From positions 1 to 64,000 of the forward strand of contig DYEU01000012.1 in NCBI GenBank assembly GCA_020725555.1: a DNA stretch of 64,000 bases, written 5' to 3'. The first letter of the stretch is position 1; each line of letters opens with the position of its first letter. The DNA is from Desulfatibacillum sp. Its GTDB lineage: Bacteria > Desulfobacterota > Desulfobacteria > Desulfobacterales > SpSt-501. The notes below the pieces were generated by a model. That model was not told the origin of the DNA, searched no databases, and worked only from the letters and a program-made list of their open reading frames with translations. Below are positions 16,691 to 33,662 of this stretch, in pieces. A program made the translations under genes and the position numbers.

Positions 16691-16719
16691 TTGCGCGCGC
16701 CGCGCTTTTGGGCTAAGGA
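16691..16719 (+). promoter_or_regulatory. Possible promoter for the second Dpp operon
   Basis: TTGCGC and TAAGGA at 17 bp spacing, ~50 nt upstream of the binding-protein start in the only gap before the operon. The -10 match is modest. Confidence 0.3.
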
Positions 16720-16768
16720 TCTCCCCCGTCGTTTCGCAGTGCACTTCACCCCGGTGGAAGGAGGCGCT

Positions 16769-18337
16769 ATGCGCAGGATCCCGATCATCGTCACGGCGGC
16801 GCTCTTCGTTCTCGTCTCGGTTGGCGGCGGCTTCGCCCAGACCCCGCGCGCCGGCGGCACCCTCGTCTGGGGCCGCGGGGGCGACTCCGTCACCCTCGAC
16901 TTGGCCCAGGCGACCGACGGCGAGTCGATCAAGGCGGGCATCCAGGTCCTCGAGAACCTCGTCATCTTCGGCAAGGACTCGATGAACGTCGAGCCCCAGC
17001 TCGCCGAGTCCTGGTCAGTCTCCGCGGACGGGCTCACCTGGACGTTCAAGCTGCGCAAGGGGGTCAAGTTCCACGACGGCTACCCCTTCAACGCCCGGGC
17101 GGTCTACGACTCCTTCGCGCGGGTGATCTTCAAGGAGCACCCCTACCACGGCTACGGCCAGTGGAAATACGTGAGCCTCTCGCTCGCCCCGGTGAAGGAC
17201 ATCCGCGTGATCGACGACTACACGATCGCGCTGGTGACCGAAAAGCCCTACGCCCCGCTGTTGAACAACCTCGCCCTGTGGCTGTGCCCGATCGTCTCCC
17301 CGCGGGCGATGGCCGAGCACAAGGACAAGATCGGCATGCACCCCGTGGGCACGGGTCCCTTCAAGTTCAAGAGCTGGGTGAAGGACGACCAGATCGTGCT
17401 GGAGCGCAACCCCGACTACTGGGGGGAAAAGGCCCGCGTCGACCGGATCGTCCTCAAGTCGATCCCCGAGCCCTCCGCGCGCCTGATGGCCTTGCAGTCG
17501 GGGACCGTGGACATCGCCGACGACCTCGACCCGGATTCGATCGCCCTCGTGAAGAAGAACCCCAAGCTCGCCGTGATCGAGCGGCCGAGCATCAACGTGG
17601 GCTACCTCGCCTTCAACACCCAGAAGCCGCGCTTCCAGGACCCTAAGGTGCGGGTTGCGCTCAGCCACGCGATCGACAAGGAGACGATCATCCGCTCGAT
17701 TTTCGCGGGGCTCGCCATCCCGGCGAAGAACCCCTTCCCGCCCTCGATCTGGGGCTACAACGACAAGATCGCCCCCTACGCCTACAACCCGCAGCTGGCG
17801 CGCAAGCTCCTCGAGGAGGCGAAGTTCGATTTCAACAGCGAAATCGAGCTCTGGGCCATGCCCGTCTCGCGCGCCTACATGCCCGAGCCGGTCAAGACGG
17901 CCGAGTTGATCCAGTCCTACTTCGCGGCGGTCGGCGTGAAGGCGAAGATCGTGCGCCACGAGTGGGGCGCCTACCTGAGCAAGACCCAGAACGGCGAGCA
18001 TGACCTGTGCATGCTCGGCTGGCTCGGCGGAAACGCCGACCCGGACAACTTCCTCTACGGGCTGCTCTCGGCCGACACGGCCAAGCCGCCGGCGGCGAAC
18101 GTCGCCTTCTGGAAGAACGCCGAGTTCACCGAGCTCTGCCTCAAGGCCCAGAAGACCTTCAACAAGGCCGAGCGGACCCAGCTGTACCTGAAGGCCCAGG
18201 AGATCTTCCACGCCGAGGCCCCCTGGATCCCGATCGCCCACTCGACCATCGTGCGCTGCTACAGCAAGAAGCTGCACGAGGTGCCGCTCCGGCCGAACGG
18301 GCTGAACTCCTTCCAGATGGTGTGGAAGGAGAAATAG
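16769..18337 (+). CDS. dppA: Periplasmic peptide-binding protein of ABC transporter (SBP family 5), second copy
   Basis: A 522-residue receptor with a clear signal peptide (MRRIPIIVTAALFVLVSVGGG, probable cleavage after AFAQ-type site FAQ). The mature part starts PRAGGTLVWGRGGDSVTLDLAQATDG and has the family motif WSVSADGLTWTFKLRKGVKFHDGYPFNA. The chosen ATG has AAGGAGG upstream; the longer frame from 16691 lacks a signal peptide at its N-terminus. It is first in a complete A-B-C-D-F operon ending with a thioesterase. It is paralogous to the binding protein at 1759-3372; no ligand can be assigned. Confidence 0.93.
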   Translation: MRRIPIIVTAALFVLVSVGGGFAQTPRAGGTLVWGRGGDSVTLDLAQATDGESIKAGIQVLENLVIFGKDSMNVEPQLAESWSVSADGLTWTFKLRKGVKFHDGYPFNARAVYDSFARVIFKEHPYHGYGQWKYVSLSLAPVKDIRVIDDYTIALVTEKPYAPLLNNLALWLCPIVSPRAMAEHKDKIGMHPVGTGPFKFKSWVKDDQIVLERNPDYWGEKARVDRIVLKSIPEPSARLMALQSGTVDIADDLDPDSIALVKKNPKLAVIERPSINVGYLAFNTQKPRFQDPKVRVALSHAIDKETIIRSIFAGLAIPAKNPFPPSIWGYNDKIAPYAYNPQLARKLLEEAKFDFNSEIELWAMPVSRAYMPEPVKTAELIQSYFAAVGVKAKIVRHEWGAYLSKTQNGEHDLCMLGWLGGNADPDNFLYGLLSADTAKPPAANVAFWKNAEFTELCLKAQKTFNKAERTQLYLKAQEIFHAEAPWIPIAHSTIVRCYSKKLHEVPLRPNGLNSFQMVWKEK

Positions 18338-18362
18338 GAACCCCCGCGCGGAGGAAGCCGGG

Positions 18363-19373
18363 ATGCCCCTGGGCTACCTCGGCAGACGGCTGCTGCATCT
18401 CGGGTTCGTGCTCCTCGGGGTCTCGCTCGTCGTCTTTCTGATGCTGCGCATGATCCCGGGGGACCCCGCACGCCTGCTGCTGGGCGAGTTCGCCTCGGCC
18501 GAGGACCTCGCCCGGCTGCGGGCGCAGATGGGGCTCGAGCGCCCCCTGCCCGTGCAATACGGCCTCTACCTCGGCCGCCTGCTGCAGGGGGACCTGGGGC
18601 AATCGCTGCGCAACGGCGCCCCCGTGGCGGCCGAGATCGCCCAGCGGCTCGCCGCCACGGTGGAGCTCGCCGTCGCGGCCATGCTGATCGCCACCTTCCT
18701 GGGGATCGCCGCCGGGGTCGTGTCCGCGGTGCGGCCCTACTCGCTCTTCGACACCGCGGCCATGCTGCTCGCCCTGGTCGGGGTGTCGATGCCGGTCTTC
18801 TGGCTCGGCCTCATGCTCATGTACCTCTTCGCGGTGCGCGTTCCCGTCCTGCCGCTCATGGGGCGGATCGGCATGGGCAACGAACCCGAGGCCCTGACCG
18901 GGCTCATGCTCGTGGACACCCTGCTCGCGGGCGAGGGCGAGGCCTTCCTCGAGGCCCTCCAGCACCTGGTCCTGCCCGCCGTGACGCTCGCCACCGTCCC
19001 CCTGGCGATCATCGCCCGCATCACGCGCTCCTCCATGCTCGAGGTGCTCCAGCAGGATTACGTGCGCACCGCACGGGCCAAGGGGCTCGACGAGTCCGTC
19101 GTCATCCTGCGGCACGCGCTGCGCAACGCCCTGCTGCCGATCGTCACCGTGCTGGGACTGAATCTCGGGCTGCTCCTGAGCGGGGCGGTGCTCACGGAGA
19201 CGATCTTCTCCTGGCCGGGCCTCGGCCGCTACGTCGTCGACTCGCTCATGGCGCGCGACTACGCCGCGGTCCAGGGCTGCATCCTCGTCTTCGCCGCCAT
19301 CCTGGCCGTGATCAACCTCGTCGTCGATCTCGCCTACGCGGCGCTCGATCCGAGGATCCGCATCCATGCCTAG
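18363..19373 (+). CDS. dppB: Peptide ABC transporter permease, DppB family
   Basis: A 336-residue inner-membrane permease. The N-terminus LGYLGRRLLHLGFVLLGVSLVVFLMLRMIPGDPARLLLG is the DppB signature, and SSMLEVLQQDYVRTARAKGLDESVVILRHALRNALLPIV the EAA loop. It follows dppA by 25 nt and overlaps dppC by 8 nt. It is closely similar in layout to the DppB at 745-1749. Confidence 0.95.
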   Translation: MPLGYLGRRLLHLGFVLLGVSLVVFLMLRMIPGDPARLLLGEFASAEDLARLRAQMGLERPLPVQYGLYLGRLLQGDLGQSLRNGAPVAAEIAQRLAATVELAVAAMLIATFLGIAAGVVSAVRPYSLFDTAAMLLALVGVSMPVFWLGLMLMYLFAVRVPVLPLMGRIGMGNEPEALTGLMLVDTLLAGEGEAFLEALQHLVLPAVTLATVPLAIIARITRSSMLEVLQQDYVRTARAKGLDESVVILRHALRNALLPIVTVLGLNLGLLLSGAVLTETIFSWPGLGRYVVDSLMARDYAAVQGCILVFAAILAVINLVVDLAYAALDPRIRIHA

Positions 19374-20205
19374 CTGGGAACCGCTGGCCGGGCTGTGGCG
19401 CAGCCGCAGCGCGGCGCTCGGCCTGGGCCTGATCGCCTTCGTGCTCGGGGTCGCCCTCTTCGGGCCGGCCGTCGCCCCCCACGACCCCTTCCGCACCGCG
19501 CCCCTCGAACGGCTCGCCGCGCCGAGCGCCGCCCACCCCTTCGGCACCGACAGCCTGGGCCGCGACATCCTGAGCCGCGTGATCCACGGGGCGCGCATCT
19601 CGATCCTGATCGGCCTGATCTCGGTGTCCATCTCGCTCTTCCCGGGGACGCTCCTCGGCCTGCTCGCGGGCTATTTCGGCGGGCGCCTCGACAGCGTGAT
19701 CATGCGCGCGATGGACATGCTGCTCGCCTTCCCGGCGATCCTCCTCGCCATCTTCATCACGGCCATCCTCGGCCCGAGCCTGCCGAACACGATGATCGCC
19801 GTGGGCGTCGTCTACATCCCGCACTACGCCCGCATCGTGCGCTCGAGCGTGCTCGCGCTCAAGGAGCAGCTCTTCGTCCAGGCGATCGCCCACCTGGGCG
19901 GCGGCCACGGCCGGATCCTCTTCCGCCACGTGCTGCCGAACGCGCTGCCCCCGATCATCGTCTATGCCACGCTCGGCATGGGGACCGCCGTGCTGCAGGC
20001 CGCCGCCCTCGGGTTTTTGGGGCTCGGGGCCCAGCCCCCCCAGCCCGAGTGGGGGGTGATGCTGAGCGAGGGCCGGCAGTACCTCCAGATCGCCCCCCAC
20101 GTCGCCGCGTTTCCCGGGGGGGCGATCTTCATCCTCGTGCTCGGCTTCAACCTGCTGGGGGACGGGCTGCGCGACGTGCTCGACCCCACGCTGCGGGCGC
20201 TCTAA
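19366..20205 (+). CDS. dppC: Peptide ABC transporter permease, DppC family
   Basis: A 279-residue permease with the DppC hallmarks [27 protein letters not shown] and the loop [38 protein letters not shown]. It ends with the usual [15 protein letters not shown]. It pairs with the DppB encoded just upstream (8-nt overlap) and is followed after 15 nt by the ATPase gene dppD. Confidence 0.95.
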
Positions 20206-20220
20206 GGGGGGGCCGAAGCG

Positions 20221-21192
20221 GTGGGTGCGGCGGCGGTGCTTTCGATCTCGGGGCTGCGGACGGAGTTCCGCACGCGGCGGGGGCCCGTGGCCGCGGTCGA
20301 CGGGCTCGACCTCGAGCTGCCCGCCGGGGAGACCTTCGGCCTGGTGGGGGAGTCCGGCTGCGGCAAGAGCGTCACCGCGCTCTCCATCCTGCGGCTGCTC
20401 CCGCGGCCCGCCGGCCGCGTGGCCGCCGGCTCGATCCGCTTCGAGGGCGAGGATCTCCTCGCCCTGCCGGAGGCCGCGATGCGGCGGATCCGGGGCAACC
20501 GCATTTCCATGATCTTCCAGGAGCCCATGACCTCGCTCAACCCGGTCCTGCCGGTCGGCTTTCAGATCGAGGAGGTCCTGCGCAAGCACCGCGGGCTCTC
20601 CGCGCGCGAGGCCCGCGCCGAGGCGGGCGGCCTGCTCGCGCGCGTCGGCATGCCCGATCCGCAATCCCGGCTGGACGACTACCCCCACCAGCTCTCGGGC
20701 GGGATGCGCCAGCGGGCGATGATCGCGATCGCGCTCGCCTGCCGCCCGGCCCTCATGATCGCCGACGAGCCGACGACCGCGCTCGACGTCACCATCCAGG
20801 CCCAGATCCTCGAGCTGATCTCCCGCCTGCAGGCCGAGTTCGGCATGTCGGTGCTCCTGATCACCCATGACCTCGGGGTCGTCGCCGAGACCTGCCGCGA
20901 GGCGGCCGTCATGTACGCCGGGCGGATCGTGGAGCGCGCCGCGGTCGCCCGCCTCTATGCCCGGCCCGCGCACCCGTACACCGTGGGGCTCTTCCGCTCG
21001 CTGCCGCGGGCCGTGGGCCGCGGCGGAAAACTCACCCCCATCCCGGGCACGGTGCCCCACCCGGCGGAGCTGCCGCCGGGCTGCGCCTTCCAGGAGCGCT
21101 GTTTCCAGCGGCACGCGGCCTGCCGCGAGGATCCGCCCTGGGCGGAGGTGGCAACCGGGCATTTCGCGCGCTGCTGGAAGCCGCTCGGGTGA
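20221..21192 (+). CDS. dppD: Peptide ABC transporter ATP-binding protein, DppD family
   Basis: A 323-residue ATPase starting at GTG. Walker A is GESGCGKS, the ABC signature LSGGMRQR, and Walker [13 protein letters not shown], followed by the H-loop ITHDLG. The C-terminal oligopeptide-transporter extension with [18 protein letters not shown] carries cysteines that in DppD/OppD bind an Fe-S cluster or form a conserved patch. It is one of two nucleotide-binding subunits; dppF follows after 3 nt. Confidence 0.95.
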
Positions 21193-21195
21193 ACC

Positions 21196-22161
<966 letters not shown>

Positions 22162-22229
22162 GCGCCGCGGGGGTGCGGCGGGGAAACGGCCCCGGGCGCA
22201 CGGCCCCCCGGGGCCAGCCGGAGGATGCC

Positions 22230-22694
22230 ATGGACGAAGCCCCGCGGCTTGCGCCGCTGCTTAACCTCGTCCGCGAGATCTGCGAGCGGATCCCCTTCAA
22301 CCGCCTGCTCGGGCTGCAGGTCGAATCGCTTGACCCCGCCCGGCCGCGGGTGCGTCTTGCCATGCGGCCGGAGCTCGTCGGCAATTTCATCCGCGGCTCG
22401 CTCCACGGCGGGGTGATCTCGAGCACGCTCGACTTCACCGGCGGGCTGGTCGCCTACCTGGGGGTGCTCCAGGCCCTGCCCGAGGAGCCGCCGGCCGAGC
22501 TCGCGGCCCGCTTTGCGCGGATCGGGACGATCGATCTGCGGGTCGATTACCTCCGGCCGGGGATCGGCCGCGAATTCACGGCGACGGGCTGGGCGCTGCG
22601 CACGGGAAAGAAAGTCGCCGTGACGCGCATGGAGATGCACACCGAGGCGGGGGTCCTGATCGCCGTCGGCACCGGCGCCTACACCGTGGCCTGA
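22230..22694 (+). CDS. Hotdog-fold thioesterase family protein
   Basis: A 154-residue single-domain protein of the PaaI/YbgC-like hotdog superfamily. The conserved segment GNFIRGSLHGGVISSTLDFTGGLVAYL matches the HGG turn and central helix of acyl-CoA thioesterases, and TIDLRVDYLRPGIGREFTATGW the core strands. It sits 68 nt after dppF and before a terminator-like hairpin, so it may be the last gene of the Dpp operon. The acyl-CoA substrate is unknown. The start has GAGG 6-9 nt upstream. Confidence 0.8.
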   Translation: MDEAPRLAPLLNLVREICERIPFNRLLGLQVESLDPARPRVRLAMRPELVGNFIRGSLHGGVISSTLDFTGGLVAYLGVLQALPEEPPAELAARFARIGTIDLRVDYLRPGIGREFTATGWALRTGKKVAVTRMEMHTEAGVLIAVGTGAYTVA

Positions 22695-22704
22695 AGCCCT
22701 CCCC

Positions 22705-22738
22705 CGGGGGCGCGCGGTTTACAGCCGCCCCCGTTTCT
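22705..22738 (+). terminator. Probable rho-independent terminator after the Dpp/thioesterase operon
   Basis: An 8-bp stem, arms CGGGGGCG and CGCCCCCG with a 13-nt loop, is followed by a short TTTCT run. It begins ten bases after the thioesterase stop. Confidence 0.5.
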
Positions 22739-22790
22739 GGTAGAGGGCGTTTGAGGCCGCGGTGCCCCGAAGCCGGCCGAGGAGGAGACG

Positions 22791-22892
22791 ATGGCCAAGT
22801 CGCGGGACGTCAAGAAGGACGCGAAGAAAAAGCCGCAGAAGTCGCTCAAGGAAAAGCGCGCCGAGAAGAAATCGAAGAAGGAGAAGGCCTGA
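22791..22892 (+). CDS. Small lysine-rich protein (33 residues)
   Basis: A short open frame, MAKSRDVKKDAKKK continuing to KKSKKEKA, with a strong ribosome site (GGAGGAG) 3-9 nt upstream. About 45% of residues are Lys and the rest are mostly charged, so the product is probably an extended, nucleic-acid- or ribosome-associated peptide. Similar tiny Lys-rich proteins are known as hypothetical genes in proteobacteria; no function is established. It is too short for ordinary ORF thresholds. It stands between the Dpp terminator and the convergent esterase gene and would be expressed independently. Confidence 0.6.
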   Translation: MAKSRDVKKDAKKKPQKSLKEKRAEKKSKKEKA

Positions 22893-22908
22893 TCCCGCCG
22901 CGGCCCCC

Positions 22909-23664
22909 TCAGTGCGGGCCGTAGAGGGCCTCCAGAAAGCGGTTCATCTGCCGGAACCACCACGGCCAGTCGTGGTCGACCTCCGGCCCCCAGATCTCGA
23001 CCCAGGCGGGGATCGCCTTGCGCTCCAGGCACGAGGCGAGCGCCCGGGTGTCCTCCAGGCATTCCGCCTCCCACGCCCCCTGTCCCACGCAGACGATGAT
23101 ACGGTCGCCGCGCAGCGCGGCGAGCAGGCGCGGGTCTTCCAGCCCCGGCAGGTAGTGGAGCGGGGAGTTGAAATAGACCGCGGGGATGTCCTGCGGGCCG
23201 ATCGCGAACTCGGGCCGGTCGAGCCGGTAGAGGCCGGAGAGGGCGATCGTCCCCTCGAAGAGCTCGGGGTGCTTGAGGAGCGTGTTGACGGCGTGGAAGG
23301 CGCCCATGCTGCAGCCCGTGAGCATGGGCCGCTCCTTGGGGGAGCGGTTGTGGCCGCGGACGAAGGGGAGCACCTCGTGGACGAGGTAGGCGTCCCAGGC
23401 CTCGTGCCGCGCGTTGCGCTCGGCGGGCGGGAGGTCGAAGCGGTACCAGGACTCGGCGTCCACGCCGTCCACGGCGAAGAGCTTGATCGCCCCGCCCTCG
23501 ATGAACCGGGCGATCGCCCCCACCATGCCCATCCCCGCGTAGTCGAAGTGGCGGCCCCGCGAGCAGGGAAAGACGACGAAGGCCTTGCCCCAGTGGCCGT
23601 AGACCGCGAGCTCCATCTCCCGGCCCAGGCGCGGGCTGAACCAGCGGTGGGTTTCGGTCCGCAT
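22909..23664 (-). CDS. Alpha/beta-hydrolase fold esterase (esterase D / PF00756 type)
   Basis: A 251-residue cytoplasmic hydrolase. The nucleophile elbow is GCSMGAFHAVN and the late His lies in EVDHDWPWWFRQMNRF; the N-terminal FSPRLGREMELAVYGHWGKAFVVFPCSRGRHFDY fits the esterase D-like fold. It lies 15 nt downstream of an ATP-grasp gene and is last in a four-gene unit, so it may cleave or transfer an ester or amide made by the ATP-grasp enzymes. That link is inferred from context only. Confidence 0.82.
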   Translation of the reverse strand: MRTETHRWFSPRLGREMELAVYGHWGKAFVVFPCSRGRHFDYAGMGMVGAIARFIEGGAIKLFAVDGVDAESWYRFDLPPAERNARHEAWDAYLVHEVLPFVRGHNRSPKERPMLTGCSMGAFHAVNTLLKHPELFEGTIALSGLYRLDRPEFAIGPQDIPAVYFNSPLHYLPGLEDPRLLAALRGDRIIVCVGQGAWEAECLEDTRALASCLERKAIPAWVEIWGPEVDHDWPWWFRQMNRFLEALYGPH

Positions 23665-23679
23665 GCCGCCTTGCCCCGC

Positions 23680-24849
23680 TCAGCCGGCCGGCTGCAGGAT
23701 GAAGCGGGCGATGTCCCGGAGCTGCTCGAGGCTCGGGGAACGGAAGAGGTAGCCCGTGTCCCCGAGCGGCCCGCTCAGCACGGGCGGCACCGTCTCCACC
23801 AGCAGGATGTGGTGGCCCCAGCGCGAGATCACGTCGTTGTGGGTGTGCGCGTAGCGGCGCTCCCGCCGCCTGCCGCACCAGCCGCTGTGGTAGCGGCGCT
23901 CGTAGCGCAGGTCGCTTTCCCCGCGGACGAGGAGCTCGGCCCAGGCGCGGTAGACGTCCGCGTCCGCGCTGTAGTTGAACATGTCGGTCGTCCAGCCCCC
24001 CGGCGGCCGCAGGTTGATCTCGAGGGGGACCCAGGCGCCGTCCGCGGTGTGGAAGAACTCGATGTGGAAGAAGCGCTCGCGCACGGCGAAGGCCGAAAGC
24101 GCGCGCAGGCCGGCGTCCTCCAGGCCGGGCGGGATGTCGCGCAGCGAGTAATAGAAAAGGTCCCGGCCTTCGCGCACGGTCTCGAGGATGCCCTGGCTGA
24201 AGACGTGTGCGGTGGTGAACAGCGGCCGCCCCTGCCGGTCGGCCAAGCCGTCGAAGGAGTGGAGCGTCCCGCTCACGAAGGCCTCGAGGAACCAGGGCTC
24301 GGCCGGCTGGGCGGCGAAGAGGGCGGCGAGCTGGGCTTCGGATTCGAGGCGGTGCGTGTCCCGCGCCCCCACCCCGGCGTCCGGCTTGGCGATCAGCGGA
24401 AAGCCGGCCTCGGCGGCGAAGGCGAGCGCCTCCTCCAGGGTGTGCGCGAGCCGGCCGGGGGCCGTGGGGAGCCCGGCGGCGCGGAAGACCTCCTTCATGC
24501 GCGATTTGCGCCGCACGCGCCCGATCTCCGCCGCGCGCGGCCCCGGGACGTTGAAGTCGTCCCTGAGGCGCGCCTCGGTGTCCAGCCAGTACTCGTTTAG
24601 CGATTCCAGGCGCTCGATCCGCCCGTAGCGCTGGATGTAGCCGCCGCAGGCGCGCAGGAGGGCGTCGTAGTCGTGGAGGTCGCCCACGGCCCGGTAGTCG
24701 GTGAGCGCCTCGCGGACTTCCGGGGCGAGGGCCTCCTCGGGCGTGTCGCCGATGCCGAGCGTGCGTCCGCCCGCCCGCTTCGCCTGGATCCAGAAGCGGT
24801 GGTAATGCGGCGGGAAATGGGGGGAGAGGATCACGAGGTTTTCGGCCAT
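23680..24849 (-). CDS. ATP-grasp domain carboxylate ligase-like protein (first of a tandem pair)
   Basis: A 389-residue protein with an N-terminal Rossmann-like region (ENLVILSPHFPPHYHRFWIQAKRAGGRTLGIGDT) and an ATP-grasp core. FPLIAKPDAGVGARDTHRL is the nucleotide-binding strand, and VPLEINLRPPGGWTTDMFNY holds the Mg/ATP acidic-Asn-Arg motif. The start was placed at ATG giving MAENLVIL; the frame extends 41 residues upstream into the neighbour. It is homologous to the gene immediately upstream, with 5 nt between them. Such enzymes join a carboxylate to an amine or thiol; the substrates are unknown. Confidence 0.85.
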   Translation of the reverse strand: MAENLVILSPHFPPHYHRFWIQAKRAGGRTLGIGDTPEEALAPEVREALTDYRAVGDLHDYDALLRACGGYIQRYGRIERLESLNEYWLDTEARLRDDFNVPGPRAAEIGRVRRKSRMKEVFRAAGLPTAPGRLAHTLEEALAFAAEAGFPLIAKPDAGVGARDTHRLESEAQLAALFAAQPAEPWFLEAFVSGTLHSFDGLADRQGRPLFTTAHVFSQGILETVREGRDLFYYSLRDIPPGLEDAGLRALSAFAVRERFFHIEFFHTADGAWVPLEINLRPPGGWTTDMFNYSADADVYRAWAELLVRGESDLRYERRYHSGWCGRRRERRYAHTHNDVISRWGHHILLVETVPPVLSGPLGDTGYLFRSPSLEQLRDIARFILQPAG

Positions 24850-24854
24850 GGGGG

Positions 24855-26018
24855 TCACCCTTCGCGGCGGGCTTCGGCGCCGAGGGCGAGGATCTCCTCC
24901 TCGTCTTCGGCGCGGAAGAGGTAACGGGTGCGCCCCATGATCTCCCAGAAGAGCGGGGGGTTTTCGCCCCACTCGACGAGCCTCCCGCCCAGGCGGGCGA
25001 GCAGGTCCTCGTGGGAGAGCGCATAGGGCTTGTCGCGGCGGCCGACGTAGCCGACCGCGTACTTCTTGGCCGCGGGAAGCTCCGGGGGGCGGCCGAGCAG
25101 GATGCGCGCCCAGGCGCGGTAGAGGTCGCCGTCGATGCTGTAGTTCATCATGTCGAGGATCGCCCCGCCCGGGGGCCGGGCGTTCAGCTCGATCGGCACC
25201 CAGTCGGCCCCGCGGTCGAAGAACTCGATGTGGAAGAACTTGCGCCGCAGCCCGAGGCGGCGCACGAGCTCGCCCCCGACGGCGGCGAGCCCCTCGGGGA
25301 CCCGCCGGCTGACGTAGAAGAAGGGGTCCCGGCCGGCGGCGTAGTCGACCACCCCCTCGCCGTAGACGAGCCGGTTTTCGAAGACCACCCGGCCCTCGAG
25401 GTCGACCAGCCCGTCGAAGGTGACGATGGGGGCGGAAATCCAGTCCTCGAGCAGGACGTCCTCGGTCAGGCGCGGGAAGATCTCCCGCAGGGCCGCCTCG
25501 TCGTCCACGCGGTGGACGCCCCGGGCGCCCACGCCCTCGTTGGGCTTGAGGCAGACGGGGTAGCCCAGCTCCGCGGCGAGCCGCAGCGCCTCCTCCAGGG
25601 AGGCGACGACCGCCCCGCGCGCGACCGGGAGGCGGGCGTCCTGGAAGAGGCGCTTCATGACCGATTTTTTTTTCAACGGCTCGATGTCGGTGCGGCGCAG
25701 GCCGGGGATGTCGAAGCGCTCGTTGATCCAGGCCTCCAGGCGCAGCCAGGCCTCGTTGTGGGACTCGACCCAGGCGAAGGGGCCCTCGAAGCCCTGGGCG
25801 TGCTTGATCTCGAGGAGCTCGTGGACCGCCGCCTCGACCCGCTCCCAGCGGGCGAGCGCGGCGCGGGCGTACCAGCGGATGCAGGCGCGCAGCTCCGCCG
25901 GCAGGCTGTAGAAGTCGGCCTCGCCGATCGCCCAGACGCGGATGCCCTCGGCGTGCAGGCGGCGCACGAAGGTGGCGTAGTTGGGGGGGAACTCCGGCGA
26001 GAGGTAGAGAATGTCCAC
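24855..26018 (-). CDS. ATP-grasp domain carboxylate ligase-like protein (second of a tandem pair)
   Basis: A 387-residue paralogue of the neighbouring ATP-grasp protein, with the same opening (DILYLSPEFPPNYATFVRRLHAEGIRVWAIGE). Its ATP site reads YPVCLKPNEGVGARGVHRV and its metal site WVPIELNARPPGGAILDMMNY. The start is a GTG eight bases downstream of the CoA-transferase/GNAT stop. Two non-identical copies side by side suggest successive ligations or a heteromer. Confidence 0.85.
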   Translation of the reverse strand: MDILYLSPEFPPNYATFVRRLHAEGIRVWAIGEADFYSLPAELRACIRWYARAALARWERVEAAVHELLEIKHAQGFEGPFAWVESHNEAWLRLEAWINERFDIPGLRRTDIEPLKKKSVMKRLFQDARLPVARGAVVASLEEALRLAAELGYPVCLKPNEGVGARGVHRVDDEAALREIFPRLTEDVLLEDWISAPIVTFDGLVDLEGRVVFENRLVYGEGVVDYAAGRDPFFYVSRRVPEGLAAVGGELVRRLGLRRKFFHIEFFDRGADWVPIELNARPPGGAILDMMNYSIDGDLYRAWARILLGRPPELPAAKKYAVGYVGRRDKPYALSHEDLLARLGGRLVEWGENPPLFWEIMGRTRYLFRAEDEEEILALGAEARREG

Positions 26019-26026
26019 GGCGGCCC

Positions 26027-27901
26027 TCACTCGAGCTCGTCGAACCGGCAGGAGAGGGTCACCCCCTCGCCGTCGAAGACGCTCTTGACGCGGTAGGGCA
26101 GGGATTTGAACATGCGGATCATCGCCCGGTTGTCGGGCGAGGTGTAGGCCATCAGGCCCGCGATCCCGTGCTCCCGCGCCGCCTCGGCGATCTTGCGGAG
26201 CATGCGGCGGCCGATCCCCTTGTTCTGGAAGTCCTTCTGCACCGAGAAGGCGACCTCGGCCATGTTGAGCTTTTCGACGAGGCGGCTTTCGCCGACCGCC
26301 ACCACGCGGCCGAAGCCGAACTCGCCCACGACGGCCACGAGGGTGAGGTCCTTCACGTAATCGACGAGCGAGCGGCTCTCGATCTCCGAGCGCGGAAAGC
26401 TCGTCTTTTCGTGGCGGAAGCGCGAGAAGACGTCCTCCTTGTCGAGGCTGTAGAAGTGCTCCTGGATGCGGCGCTCGTCGACCGGCTTGGCCGGCCGGAT
26501 GACGACCTCGGCGCCGTTCACCTCGAGGGTCTCCTCCAGGCGGATCGGGTAGACCGCGCGCACGGCCTCGCCGAGTGTGCGCTCGGGGCCGATCAGCCCC
26601 AGCCGCTTGGCCGCCGCGAAGAGCTCCTCGCGGAAATCGGGGTGGGCGACGCTGATCATCCCCACCGCGCGCTCCTGCAGGCTTTTGCCGAGCAGGTTGA
26701 TCGCCCCGTACTCGGTGACGACGTAGTGCACGTCCGCCCGCGGCACCCCCACGCTGCGCTCGGCCAGCAGCGGCACGACCCGGCTGGTGCGGCCGTCCTC
26801 CGTGGTCGAGGGCAGCATGAGGATCGCCTTGCCGCCCGGGGAGCGCCGCGCGCCGCGCGTGAAATCGACGATGCCCGAGACCCCGGCGAAGAGGGTGTGC
26901 GGCGAGGCCTCCACCTCCACCTGGCCGGTCAGGTCGATCGCGTGGGCGACGTTCATGCTGACCATGCGCCGGTGGCGCGAGATGACGAAGGGGTCGTTCA
27001 CGTAGTCCGAGGGGCGGAAGTCCACCGCCGGGTTGTTGTCGAGGAAATCGTAGAGGCTGCGCGAGCCGATCGCCGCCGAGGCGACGAGCTTGCCGTCGTT
27101 GATCCCCTTGAAGCGGTTGGTGATCACCCCGCGGGCGTAGAGGTGCATGGCGTCGTCGGTGAGGAACTGGGAGTGCACGCCGAGGTCGTTTTTGTCGCCG
27201 AGGGCCTGGATCGTGGCCTGCGTGGCGGCGTCGAGGCCGATCTGGAGGGTCGAGCCGTCCTCGATCAGCCGGGCGATCAGCTGGCCGATGCGCACGGCGG
27301 CCTCCGAGGGGCCGCGGGGGGAGACGGTCGGCAGCGCCTCCTCGTGCTCGACGACCCAGTCGACGTCGTTCACGTGGATGAAGCTCTGGCCGAGCACCCG
27401 CGGCATCTGCGGGTTGACCTGGGCGATCACGAGGTCGGCCGAGCGCGCCGCGGCGAGGGTGACGTCCACCGAGATGCCGAGGCTCATCCAGCCAAAGTCG
27501 TCGGGCGGGGAGACCTGGATCAGGGCGGCGTGGATGGGGAGCTTGCGCGAGAGAAAGAGATCGGGCACCTCGGAGAGGTTCATCGGGGTGATGAAGCGCC
27601 GTTGGCGGGAGATCGGCTCCGTGCGGGTTGCCCCGAGGTAGAAGGTCCGCAGGTTGAGGGTGAAATCCTGGGTCTGGTCGGCGAGCTGGCTCAAGGGCGC
27701 CACCTCGGTGCTGAGCAGCCGCACCACCTCGAGCCCGCTCATCCGCCGGGCCTCCTCGGCGAGGGCCCGCAGGAGCTCCTGGGGCTGGGCGCAGGCCGAG
27801 CCGATGAAGATGCGCTGCCCGGAGCGCAGCTTGCGGATCGCCTCCACGGCGCGGCAGCGTTTCTGGAGGTAGGCATCCGCCCAGTAGGTCGTGGTCGCCA
27901 T
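26027..27901 (-). CDS. Acetyl-CoA hydrolase/CoA-transferase fused to GNAT acetyltransferase
   Basis: A 624-residue two-domain protein. Residues 1 to ~430 are a family I CoA-transferase/acetyl-CoA hydrolase with the active-site Glu in YVVTEYGAINLLGKSLQERA. Residues ~455-624 are a GNAT N-acyltransferase with the acetyl-CoA loop QKDFQNKGIGRRMLRKIAEAA. Fusions of this type are known in Desulfobacterota. It is first in an operon with two ATP-grasp enzymes and an esterase, spaced by 8, 5 and 15 nt. It may supply or move acyl groups for that pathway or act in general acyl-CoA metabolism. The ATG giving MATTTYWADAYLQKR was chosen. Confidence 0.9.
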   Translation of the reverse strand: MATTTYWADAYLQKRCRAVEAIRKLRSGQRIFIGSACAQPQELLRALAEEARRMSGLEVVRLLSTEVAPLSQLADQTQDFTLNLRTFYLGATRTEPISRQRRFITPMNLSEVPDLFLSRKLPIHAALIQVSPPDDFGWMSLGISVDVTLAAARSADLVIAQVNPQMPRVLGQSFIHVNDVDWVVEHEEALPTVSPRGPSEAAVRIGQLIARLIEDGSTLQIGLDAATQATIQALGDKNDLGVHSQFLTDDAMHLYARGVITNRFKGINDGKLVASAAIGSRSLYDFLDNNPAVDFRPSDYVNDPFVISRHRRMVSMNVAHAIDLTGQVEVEASPHTLFAGVSGIVDFTRGARRSPGGKAILMLPSTTEDGRTSRVVPLLAERSVGVPRADVHYVVTEYGAINLLGKSLQERAVGMISVAHPDFREELFAAAKRLGLIGPERTLGEAVRAVYPIRLEETLEVNGAEVVIRPAKPVDERRIQEHFYSLDKEDVFSRFRHEKTSFPRSEIESRSLVDYVKDLTLVAVVGEFGFGRVVAVGESRLVEKLNMAEVAFSVQKDFQNKGIGRRMLRKIAEAAREHGIAGLMAYTSPDNRAMIRMFKSLPYRVKSVFDGEGVTLSCRFDELE

Positions 27902-27990
27902 GGCCGTTCTCCGACGTCGGGGCTTCGGGGCGGCGATCCCGCGGGCAAGCGCGTTCGCCGGCAAGAGGGGTCGTGCACCGGTGAAGGCCT

Positions 27991-28019
27991 ATTCTCGCAC
28001 GGCCGTGCGCCGGTTGCAA
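27991..28019 (-). promoter_or_regulatory. Sigma-70-type promoter for the CoA-transferase/ATP-grasp operon
   Basis: On the minus strand TTGCAA and GAGAAT are separated by 17 bp, about 90 nt upstream of the start. Five of six -10 bases match TAGAAT-like boxes seen elsewhere in the window. Confidence 0.5.
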
Positions 28020-28046
28020 GGGCGGGGCGGGTTCCGCGCGGCCGGA

Positions 28047-28075
28047 TTGTGATCGCGGGCGATCCGCGGTAGAAT
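28047..28075 (+). promoter_or_regulatory. Sigma-70-type promoter for the D,D-carboxypeptidase gene
   Basis: TTGTGA and TAGAAT separated by 17 bp, 87 nt upstream of the start codon. This is one of the best -10 matches in the window. Confidence 0.6.
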
Positions 28076-28162
28076 GATGAAAACGCCCCGCCGTGGCGGG
28101 CGGTACGGCCGCCCGCCGGGCGCGCGCCCCCGGGGCGCAACGAGAGGAGAACGGTTCTGAGG

Positions 28163-29098
28163 ATGCGATGCCGAGCCTGCGCCGCGGCGGCCGCCCTGGT
28201 GTTCGCCGTCGCCTTTGCCGCGGCGGCCGAGCCCCCGGCCGGGGGCAAGACCCCGCGCGGCCGGCCTGTGCCCGTGACGCCGGCCCGCCCCCCGGACCTT
28301 CCCGGCGCGGAGCGCGGCTGGGAGGCCTGGGCCGTCGCCGACGCGGCGGACGGCCGGGTGCTGGCCGGGGAAGGCCTTGACCGGCGCTGGCCCCAGGCGA
28401 GCCTGACCAAGCTGATGCTGGCGCTCGTGGTCCTGGATGCCGTGGCGGAGGGCTCCTCTTCCCTCGAGGAGCCCGTCGTCGTCTCGCGCCGGGCCCAGGG
28501 GATGGGGGGCAGCCAGGTCTTCCTGCGGGCGGGCGAGGTCTTCCCCCTCGAGGAGCTCATGCGCGCCGCGCTCGTCGCGTCGGCCAACGACGCGGCCCTG
28601 GCCGCGGCCGAGCACGTCGCCGGGAGCGTCGAGGCCTTCATTGACCGCATGAACCGCAAGGCCCAGGAGCTGGGGATGGAAGACACCGCCTACGCGAGCG
28701 TCCACGGGCTGCCGCCCGCCCCCGGCCTTCCCGACAATGTCTCGACCTGCCGCGACCTGATCCGGCTCGCCCGCGCGGCGATCGAGCGCCCGCAGATCGT
28801 CGCCTGGACCGCGCTCGTGGAGACCCCCTTCCGCGGCGGGAGCCTCCGGCTGCACAACAAGAACCGCCTCGTGGGCCGGGTCCCCGGGGTCGACGGCCTG
28901 AAGACCGGCTACACCCGCCGCGCCGGCTTCAACCTCGTCGCCACCGCGGCCGAGGACGGCCGGCGCCTGATCGTGGTCGTCCTCGGGGCGCCCGACCCGC
29001 GGGTGCGCGATGCCTTCGCCGCCGGGAAATTCACCGAATTCCTCCGTCTCGAGGTCCGCGAACCCCTCGCCCCGGCGGGGAGAACCCTCGGCGGTTGA
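28163..29098 (+). CDS. dacA: D-alanyl-D-alanine carboxypeptidase (PBP5/DacA family, S11)
   Basis: Periplasmic serine D,D-carboxypeptidase that trims the terminal D-Ala of peptidoglycan stem peptides. All three penicillin-binding motifs are present: S80-L-T-K83 (QASLTKLM), S140-A-N142 (VASAND) and K247-T-G (DGLKTGYTRRAGF). A hydrophobic signal sequence (ACAAAAALVFAVAFAAAAEPP) opens the protein. At 311 residues it is shorter than E. coli PBP5 and lacks most of the C-terminal beta domain and amphipathic anchor, as in many small DacA/SpoVR-type enzymes. It is monocistronic with its own promoter and converges with the dsbD-like gene. Confidence 0.92.
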   Translation: MRCRACAAAAALVFAVAFAAAAEPPAGGKTPRGRPVPVTPARPPDLPGAERGWEAWAVADAADGRVLAGEGLDRRWPQASLTKLMLALVVLDAVAEGSSSLEEPVVVSRRAQGMGGSQVFLRAGEVFPLEELMRAALVASANDAALAAAEHVAGSVEAFIDRMNRKAQELGMEDTAYASVHGLPPAPGLPDNVSTCRDLIRLARAAIERPQIVAWTALVETPFRGGSLRLHNKNRLVGRVPGVDGLKTGYTRRAGFNLVATAAEDGRRLIVVVLGAPDPRVRDAFAAGKFTEFLRLEVREPLAPAGRTLGG

Positions 29099-29114
29099 CC
29101 CCCCGCGGGGCCCC

Positions 29115-30980
29115 TCAGGGCCCGGCGAGCGCGCGGTCGAGCAGCGCGGCCACCTGCTCGGCCGTGTAGAAGTCGCCCTTCCAGAGCGGTGCGCCGTCTT
29201 TCCCGTAAATCACGAGAAACGGAACCGTGAGGCTTCCCGCCCGCCAAAGCATCCGCCGCGCCGCGGGGTCGCCGGTCGTGAGGTCCGCCCGCAGCGCGGC
29301 CACCCCCGGGGCGGAGAGCCGGCGGGCGATTTCCGGCCGCTTCCAGACCGCCTCCTCAAGGGCGCGGCAGTTGAGGCACCACTCCGCGGTGAAGACGAGC
29401 GCCACCGCCCGGCCCGCGGCCTGCGCGCGGGCGAGGCGCTCCGCGCCGAAGGGCTCCCAGGCGACGGGGTCGGGCGCGGCCGGCGCCAGGGCGGCGGCGA
29501 AAACCGCCGCCGCGAGGGCAAGGCCGCCCCCCGCCCAGAGGGTGCGCGCCCCGCGGCGTGCCGCGAGCCGGGGGCCGCGCCAGGCGACCCAGAGGCCGGC
29601 CGCGGCCATGCACGCCGCGACCGGAAAGCGCCAGGCGCGCGGGGGGAACAGCCCCGGCAGGAGCCCCTGCACGCCGATTCCCGCGAAGTAGCAGGCCGCG
29701 GCGAGGAGCAAGACGCACATCGTCTGCCGCACGAGCTCGGTTGCCGGCCCCGCGGCGCGCAGCCGGCCGACCCGGTGCGGCAGGGCGGCGAGCAGGGCGT
29801 AAGGGGCCCCCATCCCCAGGCCGATGGCGAGGAAGGCGAGGACCGCGGCTTCGGGGGAGCGGGAGGCCGCCCAGGCGGCGGCCGTCCCCATGAAGGGGGC
29901 GGTGCAGGGGGTCGAGAGGACCGCGGTCAGCACCCCGACGCCGAAGGCGCCGGGCGCGGAGTCGAACCGCGGCTCGAGGCGGTAGAGAAAGCCCGGCAGG
30001 CGCGGGGACCACCCGCCGAGGCCGCCTGCGGCGAGGCCGGCCAGGACCAACCCGACCGTCAGGGCGAAGGCGGGAATCTGGAAGAGGCCGTGGGCGGAGG
30101 CGATCCCGCTCGCGCCGGCGACCGCCAGCCCGAGCGCCAGCCAGAAGGAGGCGATCCCGGCCAGAATGAGGAGGCCGAGCCGGCGGCAGCGCCGCGGGTC
30201 GGCCGCCGCGCGCGAGAGGCTCAAGACCTTGACCGGGATGAGCGGGAGCACGCAGGGCGTGAGGTTGAGGAGCAGCCCGCCGAGCGCCCCGAGCAGGAGA
30301 ATCCCCGCCGCGCCGAGGGCCGTGCGGCCGTCCAGGCGGAAGCCGATCCCGAGGAGCTCGAAGGCGGCTTCGGCCGCGGCGGCGCGGCGGGCGGTGAAGT
30401 CGGCGAGCAACCCGGGGTCGGCCGCCCGCGGGGATTCCCCCCGGGCGGCGACGGCGGCGTGCGCCTCGAGCTCCCTTCGCTCGGGCAGGAGGCAGGCGTT
30501 CTCCGTGCAGGCCTGGAATTCGAGCCGGAGGCGCAGGCGCACGGCGCGGGCGTCCGGGGCGAGCTCGAGCCGCAGGGGGAGGTGGATCGCCGCCCGGCCC
30601 GCGAAGGTGGGGAGCGGCCGCTCCGTGAACCCGACGGGCAAGGGCTCCGCAGCGGGGTAGAGGGGGGGCTCGGCGATCACGCCCTCGGGGGCCTCGAGGA
30701 GGAGCAGCCGCGTGGGGAAGGGCCGGAAATCCTCCCGCCCCTCCCAGGCGCCGCGGTCGGCCATGACGTGGAAGCCCGGGGCGATCTCGAGGATCACGGA
30801 AACCACGGCCTCGCCGCGGGGCGGAAGCGGCGCGAGCGGAAAGCAGGCCTGGGCCCGGACCGGCTCGGAGGCCTCCCCTCCCGCTTCCGCCCCCGGGGGG
30901 GGCGACGGCGAAGCGCAGCCGGGCGGCGGGGCGGAGGCCGCGGCGAGGAAAACGAGCGCCCAGAGGAGGATGCAGCGCAT
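29115..30980 (-). CDS. dsbD: Thiol:disulfide interchange protein DsbD-like (cytochrome c biogenesis membrane reductase)
   Basis: A 621-residue protein that moves reducing equivalents from cytoplasmic thioredoxin to periplasmic disulfides. Order: signal/lipoprotein-like N-terminus (LLWALVFLAAASAPPPGCAS), DsbD alpha-like beta domain with paired Cys (EFQACTENACLLPERR), an eight-helix DsbD core with NLTPCVLPLIPVK and LSTPCTAPFMG cysteines, and a C-terminal thioredoxin domain with TAEWCLNCRALEE. All six expected cysteines are present. It is transcribed divergently from metK. Helping mature c-type cytochromes or periplasmic thiol enzymes would fit an anaerobe. Confidence 0.92.
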   Translation of the reverse strand: MRCILLWALVFLAAASAPPPGCASPSPPPGAEAGGEASEPVRAQACFPLAPLPPRGEAVVSVILEIAPGFHVMADRGAWEGREDFRPFPTRLLLLEAPEGVIAEPPLYPAAEPLPVGFTERPLPTFAGRAAIHLPLRLELAPDARAVRLRLRLEFQACTENACLLPERRELEAHAAVAARGESPRAADPGLLADFTARRAAAAEAAFELLGIGFRLDGRTALGAAGILLLGALGGLLLNLTPCVLPLIPVKVLSLSRAAADPRRCRRLGLLILAGIASFWLALGLAVAGASGIASAHGLFQIPAFALTVGLVLAGLAAGGLGGWSPRLPGFLYRLEPRFDSAPGAFGVGVLTAVLSTPCTAPFMGTAAAWAASRSPEAAVLAFLAIGLGMGAPYALLAALPHRVGRLRAAGPATELVRQTMCVLLLAAACYFAGIGVQGLLPGLFPPRAWRFPVAACMAAAGLWVAWRGPRLAARRGARTLWAGGGLALAAAVFAAALAPAAPDPVAWEPFGAERLARAQAAGRAVALVFTAEWCLNCRALEEAVWKRPEIARRLSAPGVAALRADLTTGDPAARRMLWRAGSLTVPFLVIYGKDGAPLWKGDFYTAEQVAALLDRALAGP

Positions 30981-30986
30981 GGCCGA

Positions 30987-31016
30987 AGCATAGCACAGCG
31001 CGGCGGCGCCGGACAG
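30987..31016 (-). promoter_or_regulatory. Possible promoter for the dsbD-like gene, leaderless spacing
   Basis: On the minus strand CTGTCC and TATGCT are 18 bp apart. The -10 lies only six bases upstream of the ATG, implying a leaderless or very short leader. Confidence 0.35.
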
Positions 31017-31046
31017 GCGGGGCGCCGCCGCCCGCGCGCATTGCGT

Positions 31047-31075
31047 TTGACATCCGCGGCCGGGCGGTCTACTTA
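31047..31075 (+). promoter_or_regulatory. Possible promoter for metK
   Basis: A perfect TTGACA followed after 17 bp by TACTTA(T), 98 nt upstream of metK. The leader contains GC-rich hairpins but no riboswitch class I can recognise. Confidence 0.45.
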
Positions 31076-31088
31076 TGCCGGTTCATGA

Positions 31089-33662
<2,574 letters not shown>

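Follow-up and report, generated by a model that had tools for sequence, protein, structure and literature searches.

The window analysed here is a stretch of 64,000 nucleotides from the Desulfatibacillum sp. assembly GCA_020725555.1 (contig DYEU01000012.1; the source genome, G000, comprises 35 contigs and 3.59 Mb), and its subject is a set of four genes, A to D, which all lie on the minus strand and are transcribed in the order A-B-C-D. Genes B and C encode ATP-grasp ligases, D encodes a serine hydrolase, and A encodes a fusion of a coenzyme A (CoA)-transferase-like domain with a Pat-like GNAT. The intergenic gaps A/B, B/C and C/D measure only 8, 5 and 15 nt. Comparison across genomes shows that the true unit within this set is B-C-D, or C-D alone. 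The four genes and the two codons discussed below are as follows.

26027..27901, minus strand: gene A, 624 aa; CoA-transferase-like domain (about residues 11-437) fused to a Pat-like GNAT (about residues 447-613)
27167..27169, minus strand: codon of Gln245 of A, at the site of the catalytic Glu in family-I CoA-transferases
24855..26018, minus strand: gene B, 387 aa, GTG start; ATP-grasp ligase, second paralogue
23680..24849, minus strand: gene C, 389 aa; ATP-grasp ligase, core paralogue
24151..24153, minus strand: codon of Tyr233 of C, aligned with Phe234 of B in the B-C alignment
22909..23664, minus strand: gene D, 251 aa; alpha/beta serine hydrolase of PF00756

Reading frames and family assignments

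Many long antisense open reading frames (ORFs) overlap genes A-D in this GC-rich DNA, and the true frames among them were decided by homology together with the ratio of nonsynonymous to synonymous substitution rates (dN/dS). Relative to L031, a locus of the same genus, A, B, C and D retain 95, 87, 83 and 89% amino-acid identity with dN/dS of 0.09, 0.23, 0.19 and 0.15, respectively; values between 0.09 and 0.23 indicate that the four frames are real and evolve under purifying selection. Pfam labels A as PF02550 plus PF13336 plus GNAT domains, B and C as ATP-grasp families, and D as PF00756, with C barely passing the PF13535 cut-off (27.1 versus 27 bits). An alignment of B with C spans 383 columns at 37% identity (E 5e-69). 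A sequence-only reading of this stretch had described four closely spaced genes encoding two paralogous ATP-grasp ligases, a CoA-transferase/GNAT fusion and a serine esterase, and the coordinates, Pfam labels and mutual identity of B and C bear out this description. It names neither the coding strand nor the GTG start codon that opens B. NCBIfam offers no specific functional family for any of the four proteins, all matches listed falling below the curated cut-off. Additionally, Rfam gave nothing at gathering scores within positions 20000-32000 of the window, and the operon strand yielded no site in a promoter scan. Terminator-like sites number 5 versus 2.4 expected on both strands, and those on the operon strand are uninformative.

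C and D recur together across phyla

Because neighbour-clustering gene calls lose real genes in overlapping GC-rich frames, including C and A of the window, gene order was taken from separate analyses of the loci. The order A-B-C-D is found in 7/7 genomes of the window's genus, being complete in the window's own locus, L031, L034, L035 and L036 and cut by contig ends in L032 (without D) and L033 (without part of A). Outside the genus, A occurs in no other inspected locus that bears C or D, several of these loci having short flanks. B-C-D without A is present in L037, L044 and L045, C-D without B in L009, L038, L046 and L064-L071, and C with neither B nor D in L039 and L040; the contig of L168 begins inside B, so the presence of A cannot be judged there.

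C and D lie side by side in Desulfobacterota, Bacillota and Chloroflexota and on rhizobial plasmids, amid differing surroundings. Specifically, in the sample of the window's own phylum D is present in 10 of 297 genomes, at 12 places including one short fragment with a stop, and C adjoins it at 9 of the 12. In Bacillota, D is present in 42 of 344 genomes (44 places, counted at E<=1e-50), and among the best 30 of these 44 places C lies next to D in 25, on both sides in 11, upstream only in 11 and downstream only in 3, with no C within 1.5 kb in the other 5. In Chloroflexota, D is present in 54 of 251 genomes (57 places), and among the best 30 of the 57 only the three top-scoring places have C next to D. 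Of 72,556 plasmid records, through which alone Pseudomonadota were covered, 4 carry C (E<=1e-10), and 3 of these 4 also carry D. Across 45 pairs, with starts set by rule, C and D are separated by a median of 10 nt, and in 13 of the pairs they overlap. Conservation of the neighbourhood had been put forward by the sequence-only reading as a check on its proposal; the outcome is mixed, with conservation seen for C-D and not for A.

The other 27 of the 30 Chloroflexota D genes examined are more distant. In 5 of 6 extended Chloroflexota loci the distant D shares one strand with three common neighbours, which in L165, the one locus where they were named, are a RimK-like ATP-grasp, weakly a circularly-permuted-type ATP-grasp, and a GCS2/YbdK-type carboxylate-amine ligase. 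The D family thus accompanies amide ligases in two unlike toolkits, which supports a role for D on ligase products. All-versus-all neighbour clustering revealed no third partner common across phyla save the large generic clusters 3 and 4, which were not annotated singly and of which two cluster-4 members are a histidine kinase pair. Neighbours encoding FGGY kinase, M1 peptidase, dynamin-like GTPase and YitT are lineage-bound. Patterns made from C matched no contig of viral_contigs. Fusions of C to other domains, considered for L068 and L070, were rejected, the long frames there being open upstream sequence and C beginning at MNFVYLSP.

Further arrangements were observed alongside these. On a Massilia litorea plasmid (L028, 4872-8173), a class III aminotransferase resembling glutamate-1-semialdehyde aminomutase, a methyltransferase and a C-type ATP-grasp stand together without D and resemble a small biosynthetic cluster. 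In the near-identical loci L048-L051 from Bacilli metagenome-assembled genomes, a C-type ATP-grasp without D is flanked by an FGGY carbohydrate kinase and a DegV protein, and these ligases form a long, separate tree branch. L072 (6412-14418) has two D-type hydrolases without C, one by a glycogen/starch synthase and the other near a protein with a terminal ThiS domain.

Fold, catalytic-type residues and putative acceptor pocket of the ligases

The AlphaFold2 model of C (predicted local distance difference test, pLDDT, 94.3) displays the three-domain ATP-grasp fold across the whole protein; C was the ligase modelled. It aligns with the L-amino-acid ligase BL00235 over 356 of 389 residues (Z 32.6, root-mean-square deviation 3.2) and with RizA over 360 residues (Z 31.6, root-mean-square deviation 4.1), both about 3-4 Z units above the next family, PurK. 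RizA is also the top match of C in Foldseek and in two profile searches.

In the ligase alignment of 78 rows, which was restricted to closed frames that cover 360 or more profile positions, K115, K155, E189, H262, E264, E277, N279, R281 and G284 are invariant in 78/78 rows, B and the paired copies included. By analogy with the ATP-grasp superfamily, we take these nine to comprise catalytic Lys, metal-binding Glu/Asn and phosphate-binding Arg residues. Given these invariant catalytic-type residues, B and the paired copies look like active enzymes rather than pseudoenzymes.

Two profile alignments place RizA T81/E82/K83/S84 opposite N85/E86/Y87/W88 of C, and S156/A158 opposite V160/A162. According to PMC9321006, the mutated RizA residues other than D376 sit in the pocket for the C-terminal substrate. 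Within this pocket loop the Glu is common to RizA and C, whereas the flanks differ (T81/K83/S84 versus N85/Y87/W88). E86 and W88 are invariant in 78/78 rows and N85 is kept in 75/78; they belong to an S-x-N-E-x-W signature of the C family, in which S, E and W are invariant in the 78 rows. B has N85, E86, W88 and V160 as in C, and A162 in 8/10 B rows. At position 84, beside the motif, core copies have Leu, His, Asn or Phe, B has His, and the Bacillota downstream copies have Glu or Gln. None of the 27 conserved switches from C to B falls at a mapped pocket position; L84H and A154L adjoin such positions or a catalytic Lys.

Repeated ligase pairs and residue 233

In the maximum-likelihood tree of the 78 rows, B forms its own deep clade of 10 rows (support 100/100), the Bacillota downstream copies form a clade (100/100) within the 38-row Bacillota clade (100/99), and the two copies in the Chloroflexota locus L047 group as sisters (100/100). 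The arrangement of two ligases with a single hydrolase has at least two separate origins, and probably three. A single old paralogue comprising B and the Bacillota downstream copies was rejected by the approximately unbiased test (p 0.0024), a value to be read with the group picked after the tree and B long-branched.

Residue 233 (numbering of C) is Phe in 10/10 B and 14/14 Bacillota downstream copies, and Ala in the D-adjacent copy of L047. The remaining 53 rows have Tyr in 52 and Ser in one, the long-branch upstream copy L129_305, whose pair consequently has no Tyr at all. The pattern amounts to 4 changes on the tree, and the copy without Tyr233 varies in place: it stands upstream in the window, follows D in Bacillota and precedes D in L047. 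A similar trend from Ser198 to Thr is less clean, with Thr also in 5/54 others. Positions 233 and 198 were selected from a scan of all columns, and the rows share ancestry, so the pattern is suggestive and does not amount to a formal test.

Hydrolase D

D scores 52.6 bits for PF00756 against a cut-off of 22, and 25 of the 26 members of A2 match this family at E<=1e-5. The closest folds to its model (pLDDT 97.6) are the CE1 feruloyl esterase 5vol, antigen 85 and S-formylglutathione hydrolase, and identity to the 50 structural matches listed is 13-19%. The alignment points to a putative catalytic triad of Ser119, Glu199 and His231: Ser119 and His231 are present in 82/82 rows and Glu or Asp occupies position 199 in 79/82, with gaps just before 199 in 26 rows. 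In the model Ser119 follows a strand and position 199 follows strand 188-193, which is the expected place of the triad acid in this fold. D appears to be cytosolic, as judged by eye from the lack of an export signal.

Gene A

A scores 70.6 bits for PF02550 and 189.1 bits for PF13336, against cut-offs of 24 and 23.7, and its CoA-transferase domain can be aligned over its full length with 4-hydroxybutyrate CoA-transferases of solved structure. Where 5/5 of the solved enzymes shown have the catalytic Glu, the residue that carries the CoA thioester, A has Gln245, and the glycine-rich loop GIGxxPDA is GLDAATQA. Each of the three GNAT-fused copies detected in this genome has Gln at this site, as do the genus copies of A, whereas the unfused paralogue L025 has Glu. 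Of the 19 fused sequences with a locus and at least 55% identity, a count that takes in the window's own, 16 have Gln at this site, 2 have Pro and 1 has Arg; two further matches at this level (G143, G221), which are without a locus, lie outside the 19. The partial fused sequence L197 likewise has Gln. Several fused relatives at 41-44% identity (L191, L192, L198-L201) retain Glu, so its loss is a trait of the A subfamily and not of all fusions. Other fusions (L182, L185, L186, L190, L193-L196) carry Arg, Pro, Leu, Gly or Asp, and the site has therefore changed in several ways. In the genus member G001 (L034, 6124-8005), A lies in two overlapping frames, a frameshift or assembly error.

Among solved chains, the GNAT of A is closest to Pat-type GNATs linked to acyl-CoA synthetases (9it0, E 1.2e-17), and it scores far below the NCBIfam Pat cut-off (52 versus 460 bits). 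The replacement of the catalytic Glu by Gln suggests that the CoA-transferase domain probably serves as a sensor for the GNAT. By analogy with PatZ, the likeliest role of A is acyl-CoA sensing for protein acetylation, and the tie to B-C-D that the data show is the shared operon.

Genes flanking the operon

On the plus strand at 16691-22694 and convergent to the ligase operon lies an operon for an oligopeptide/dipeptide-type ATP-binding cassette (ABC) transporter (SBP_bac_5, two permeases and an ATPase), followed by a 4HBT thioesterase domain. Between the thioesterase and D, on the strand opposite to D (plus strand, about 22791-22889), a lysine-rich ORF of 33 aa (MAKSRDVKKDAKKK...) was read by eye.

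A candidate amide-ligase module and its alternatives

We tentatively favour, at a confidence somewhat short of even, a reading in which B-C-D is a small amide-ligase module, patchily distributed over the phyla and independent of nonribosomal peptide synthetases (NRPS), with two ligases of related, non-identical specificities, a product processed by D, and A standing apart. From the folds and conserved residues we infer that C, and B with it, would phosphorylate a carboxylate with ATP and then couple it to an amine acceptor. The two ligases could perform two successive couplings or attach two donors to one core, and D, cytosolic and of the esterase/antigen-85 fold, may trim, recycle or transfer the ligase product. 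A would be a separate and widespread regulator-type enzyme, a Pat-like GNAT whose broken CoA-transferase domain probably only senses acyl-CoA, recruited to the operon in this genus. Gene order, conservation, the folds of C and D, the invariant residues, the independent origins of the pairs and the missing Glu of A are computed results; the amide chemistry, how the substrates relate, an action of D on what the ligases make and the sensor role of A are interpretations built on them.

Several observations weigh against this reading. C and RizA share only 17% identity and other ATP-grasp families reach Z 24-28, so the fold alone leaves the reaction unfixed; a single-sequence PDB search even ranked carbamoyl-phosphate synthase above RizA for C. 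Position 87, aligned with the RizA specificity position K83, holds an aromatic residue or His in each of the 68 rows other than B, and Ala, Gln, Asn or Thr in B, so that the acceptor of B may differ from that of C. Neither partner of the C-D pair is strictly required: D is missing from 7 inspected loci with C (L028, L039, L040 and the near-identical L048-L051), and C is missing from 5/30 Bacillota, 3/12 phylum (one being the short fragment with a stop) and 27/30 Chloroflexota places of D examined. An unfiltered profile search for a divergent, overlooked C near D genes with C on one side or none, in L147, L151, L155, L159 and L169-L172 found none. In the C-less Bacillota loci L170-L172, D accompanies a carbohydrate kinase and a xylose-isomerase-like protein (Pfam on L171), and this sugar-gene company hints at another role. 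A single acceptor common to B and C is made less likely by position 87; judging from the alignments, the two acceptors are probably related and not identical, and the donors probably different.

Unlikely, in our estimate, is a scheme centred on D as an esterase for detoxification or salvage, whose products the ATP-grasp pair re-ligates or recycles, making a degradation or repair cycle and not a biosynthetic route. It would fit the nearness of the D fold to CE1 feruloyl esterases, with S-formylglutathione hydrolases among the matches, as well as the C-D pair EAL2_RS13890/RS13885 of the cultured Peptoclostridium acidaminophilum near hutH and an amino acid permease, the convergent oligopeptide transporter of the window, and the commonness of D without C, also next to sugar-metabolism genes. 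It sits poorly with the 7 loci that have C without D and with a ligase that is repeatedly duplicated around one D per cluster, both of which suggest that the ligase is the core.

Distinctly less probable is peptide tagging or maturation of a ribosomally synthesized and post-translationally modified peptide (RiPP), in which the ATP-grasps would modify a ribosomal peptide or protein and D would remove the modification. ATP-grasp enzymes are generally known to act so in graspetides and tagging systems, and the 33-aa lysine-rich ORF lies just beyond D, though on the opposite strand. The gaps within the operon leave no space for a precursor gene, the nearest folds to C are free-amino-acid ligases, and the graspetide family TIGR04187 matches C only at E 0.07. 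No recurrent small gene was found by C-D, a weak point since only ORFs of at least 80 aa were clustered and no dedicated small-ORF search was made.

It is improbable, too, and somewhat more so, that A carries out a genuine acyl-CoA reaction in the pathway and supplies an acyl group to B, C or D, with its Gln either processed or substituted in function by a different residue. A is the first gene of the operon and precedes B, at a distance of 8 nt in the window, in all seven genus genomes (5 complete, 2 cut by contig ends); on the other side stand the absence of Glu from each of the 19 fused sequences counted above, the altered GIGxxPDA loop, and the fact that L037, L044 and L045, which carry B-C-D outside the genus, have no A. 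Four unrelated housekeeping genes joined by chance in one transcription unit are very improbable for the set as a whole, given that C and D meet again in such differing surroundings, but the idea holds in part for A, which has paralogues elsewhere in the same genome and A-like genes in 108 of 198 phylum genomes (E<=1e-30, some matches unfused), against the rarity of D (10/297). An anti-phage defence system was rejected, as none of the four proteins has a PADLOC match at E<=0.001.

The sequence-only reading had proposed that the four genes could assemble and process a small metabolite with an amide or ester link. For B-C-D this finds support in the fold of C, the intact catalytic residues of B and C and the hydrolase that tracks the ligase across phyla; it suits A less well, A-like genes being widespread and A a partner of the module, among the loci examined, only in the window's genus. 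The proposed acyl-transfer step by A is doubtful, as the active-site Glu of its CoA-transferase domain is replaced by Gln. The earlier idea was right in outline for B, C and D and probably wrong in taking A for a pathway enzyme, and its remark that no known pathway was recognised remains true.

A bolder extension of the preferred amide-ligase reading, to which we give very little credence, would see in C-D and its paired variants a class of systems, spread over at least 4 phyla, that assemble small molecules through two ATP-grasp ligases working jointly on related acceptors. In it the ligase with Tyr233 would form an amide, its partner, deprived of the Tyr233 hydroxyl independently in different lineages, another bond, perhaps an ester, and D, with its Glu-type triad like that of antigen 85, would be the matching esterase or acyltransferase. 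A Tyr-to-Phe switch confers depsipeptide activity on D-Ala-D-Ala ligase. The likeness would be an analogy; position 233 could not be equated with the tyrosine of that enzyme.

Relation to known systems and implications

C resembles the L-amino-acid ligases RizA (4wd3), BL00235 (3vot) and BacD/YwfE (3vmm) in a nearly whole-length fold, in the common ATP-grasp catalytic residues and in the aligned pocket Glu (RizA E82, C E86). It differs from them in its identity of at most 17%, its distinct S-x-N-E-x-W signature, an amide activity that is predicted, and its gene setting, which is C-D or paralogue pairs with a PF00756 hydrolase and not a known antibiotic cluster. D is like the PF00756 esterases (5vol, the antigen 85 mycolyltransferases, S-formylglutathione hydrolase) in its fold, its G-C-S-M-G elbow and the order Ser-acid-His, and the triad acid of antigen 85 is of the Glu type, as in D. 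Its low identity to them, its conserved HDWPWW end, its ATP-grasp partners and its apparent cytosolic place set it apart. The solved chains nearest to the GNAT of A are Pat/PatZ-type GNATs fused to an acyl-CoA synthetase domain (9it0, 9isq, 4nxy) and Mycobacterium Pat (4oll). PatZ joins a broken CoA-handling enzyme domain to a GNAT, an architecture analogous to that of A, in which a CoA-transferase-like domain without its catalytic Glu replaces the acyl-CoA synthetase domain.

For B and C together, PMC12568646 provides a parallel in the two-step amide-bond enzymes of E-64 (Cp1B and Cp1D) and cystargolide (CysC and CysD), where two successive NRPS-independent ligations build a small molecule, as is proposed for B-C. 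As described there, E-64 uses one ATP-grasp and one ANL-family ligase, whereas B and C are both ATP-grasps, paralogous to each other, and are accompanied by a hydrolase.

No Pfam, NCBIfam or PADLOC model names the C-D module, and searches of the Creative Commons-licensed PubMed Central literature listed no paper that, judged by title and start of abstract, deals with the module or the A fusion, although older genomic surveys may already include C-D. The parts are of known kinds; what sets the module apart is their combination, its recurrence and the repeated pairs. In the A subfamily, as in PatZ, a protein acetyltransferase is joined to what appears to be a broken metabolic enzyme. The recurrent second ligase, with loss of the same Tyr in one copy per pair, is a natural experiment on ligase specificity. 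Small ATP-grasp ligases yield antibiotics, osmolytes, cofactors and signalling dipeptides without NRPS, and a recurrent two- or three-gene module in relatives of sulfate reducers, Bacillota, Chloroflexota and rhizobia may represent a compact route to a new metabolite family.

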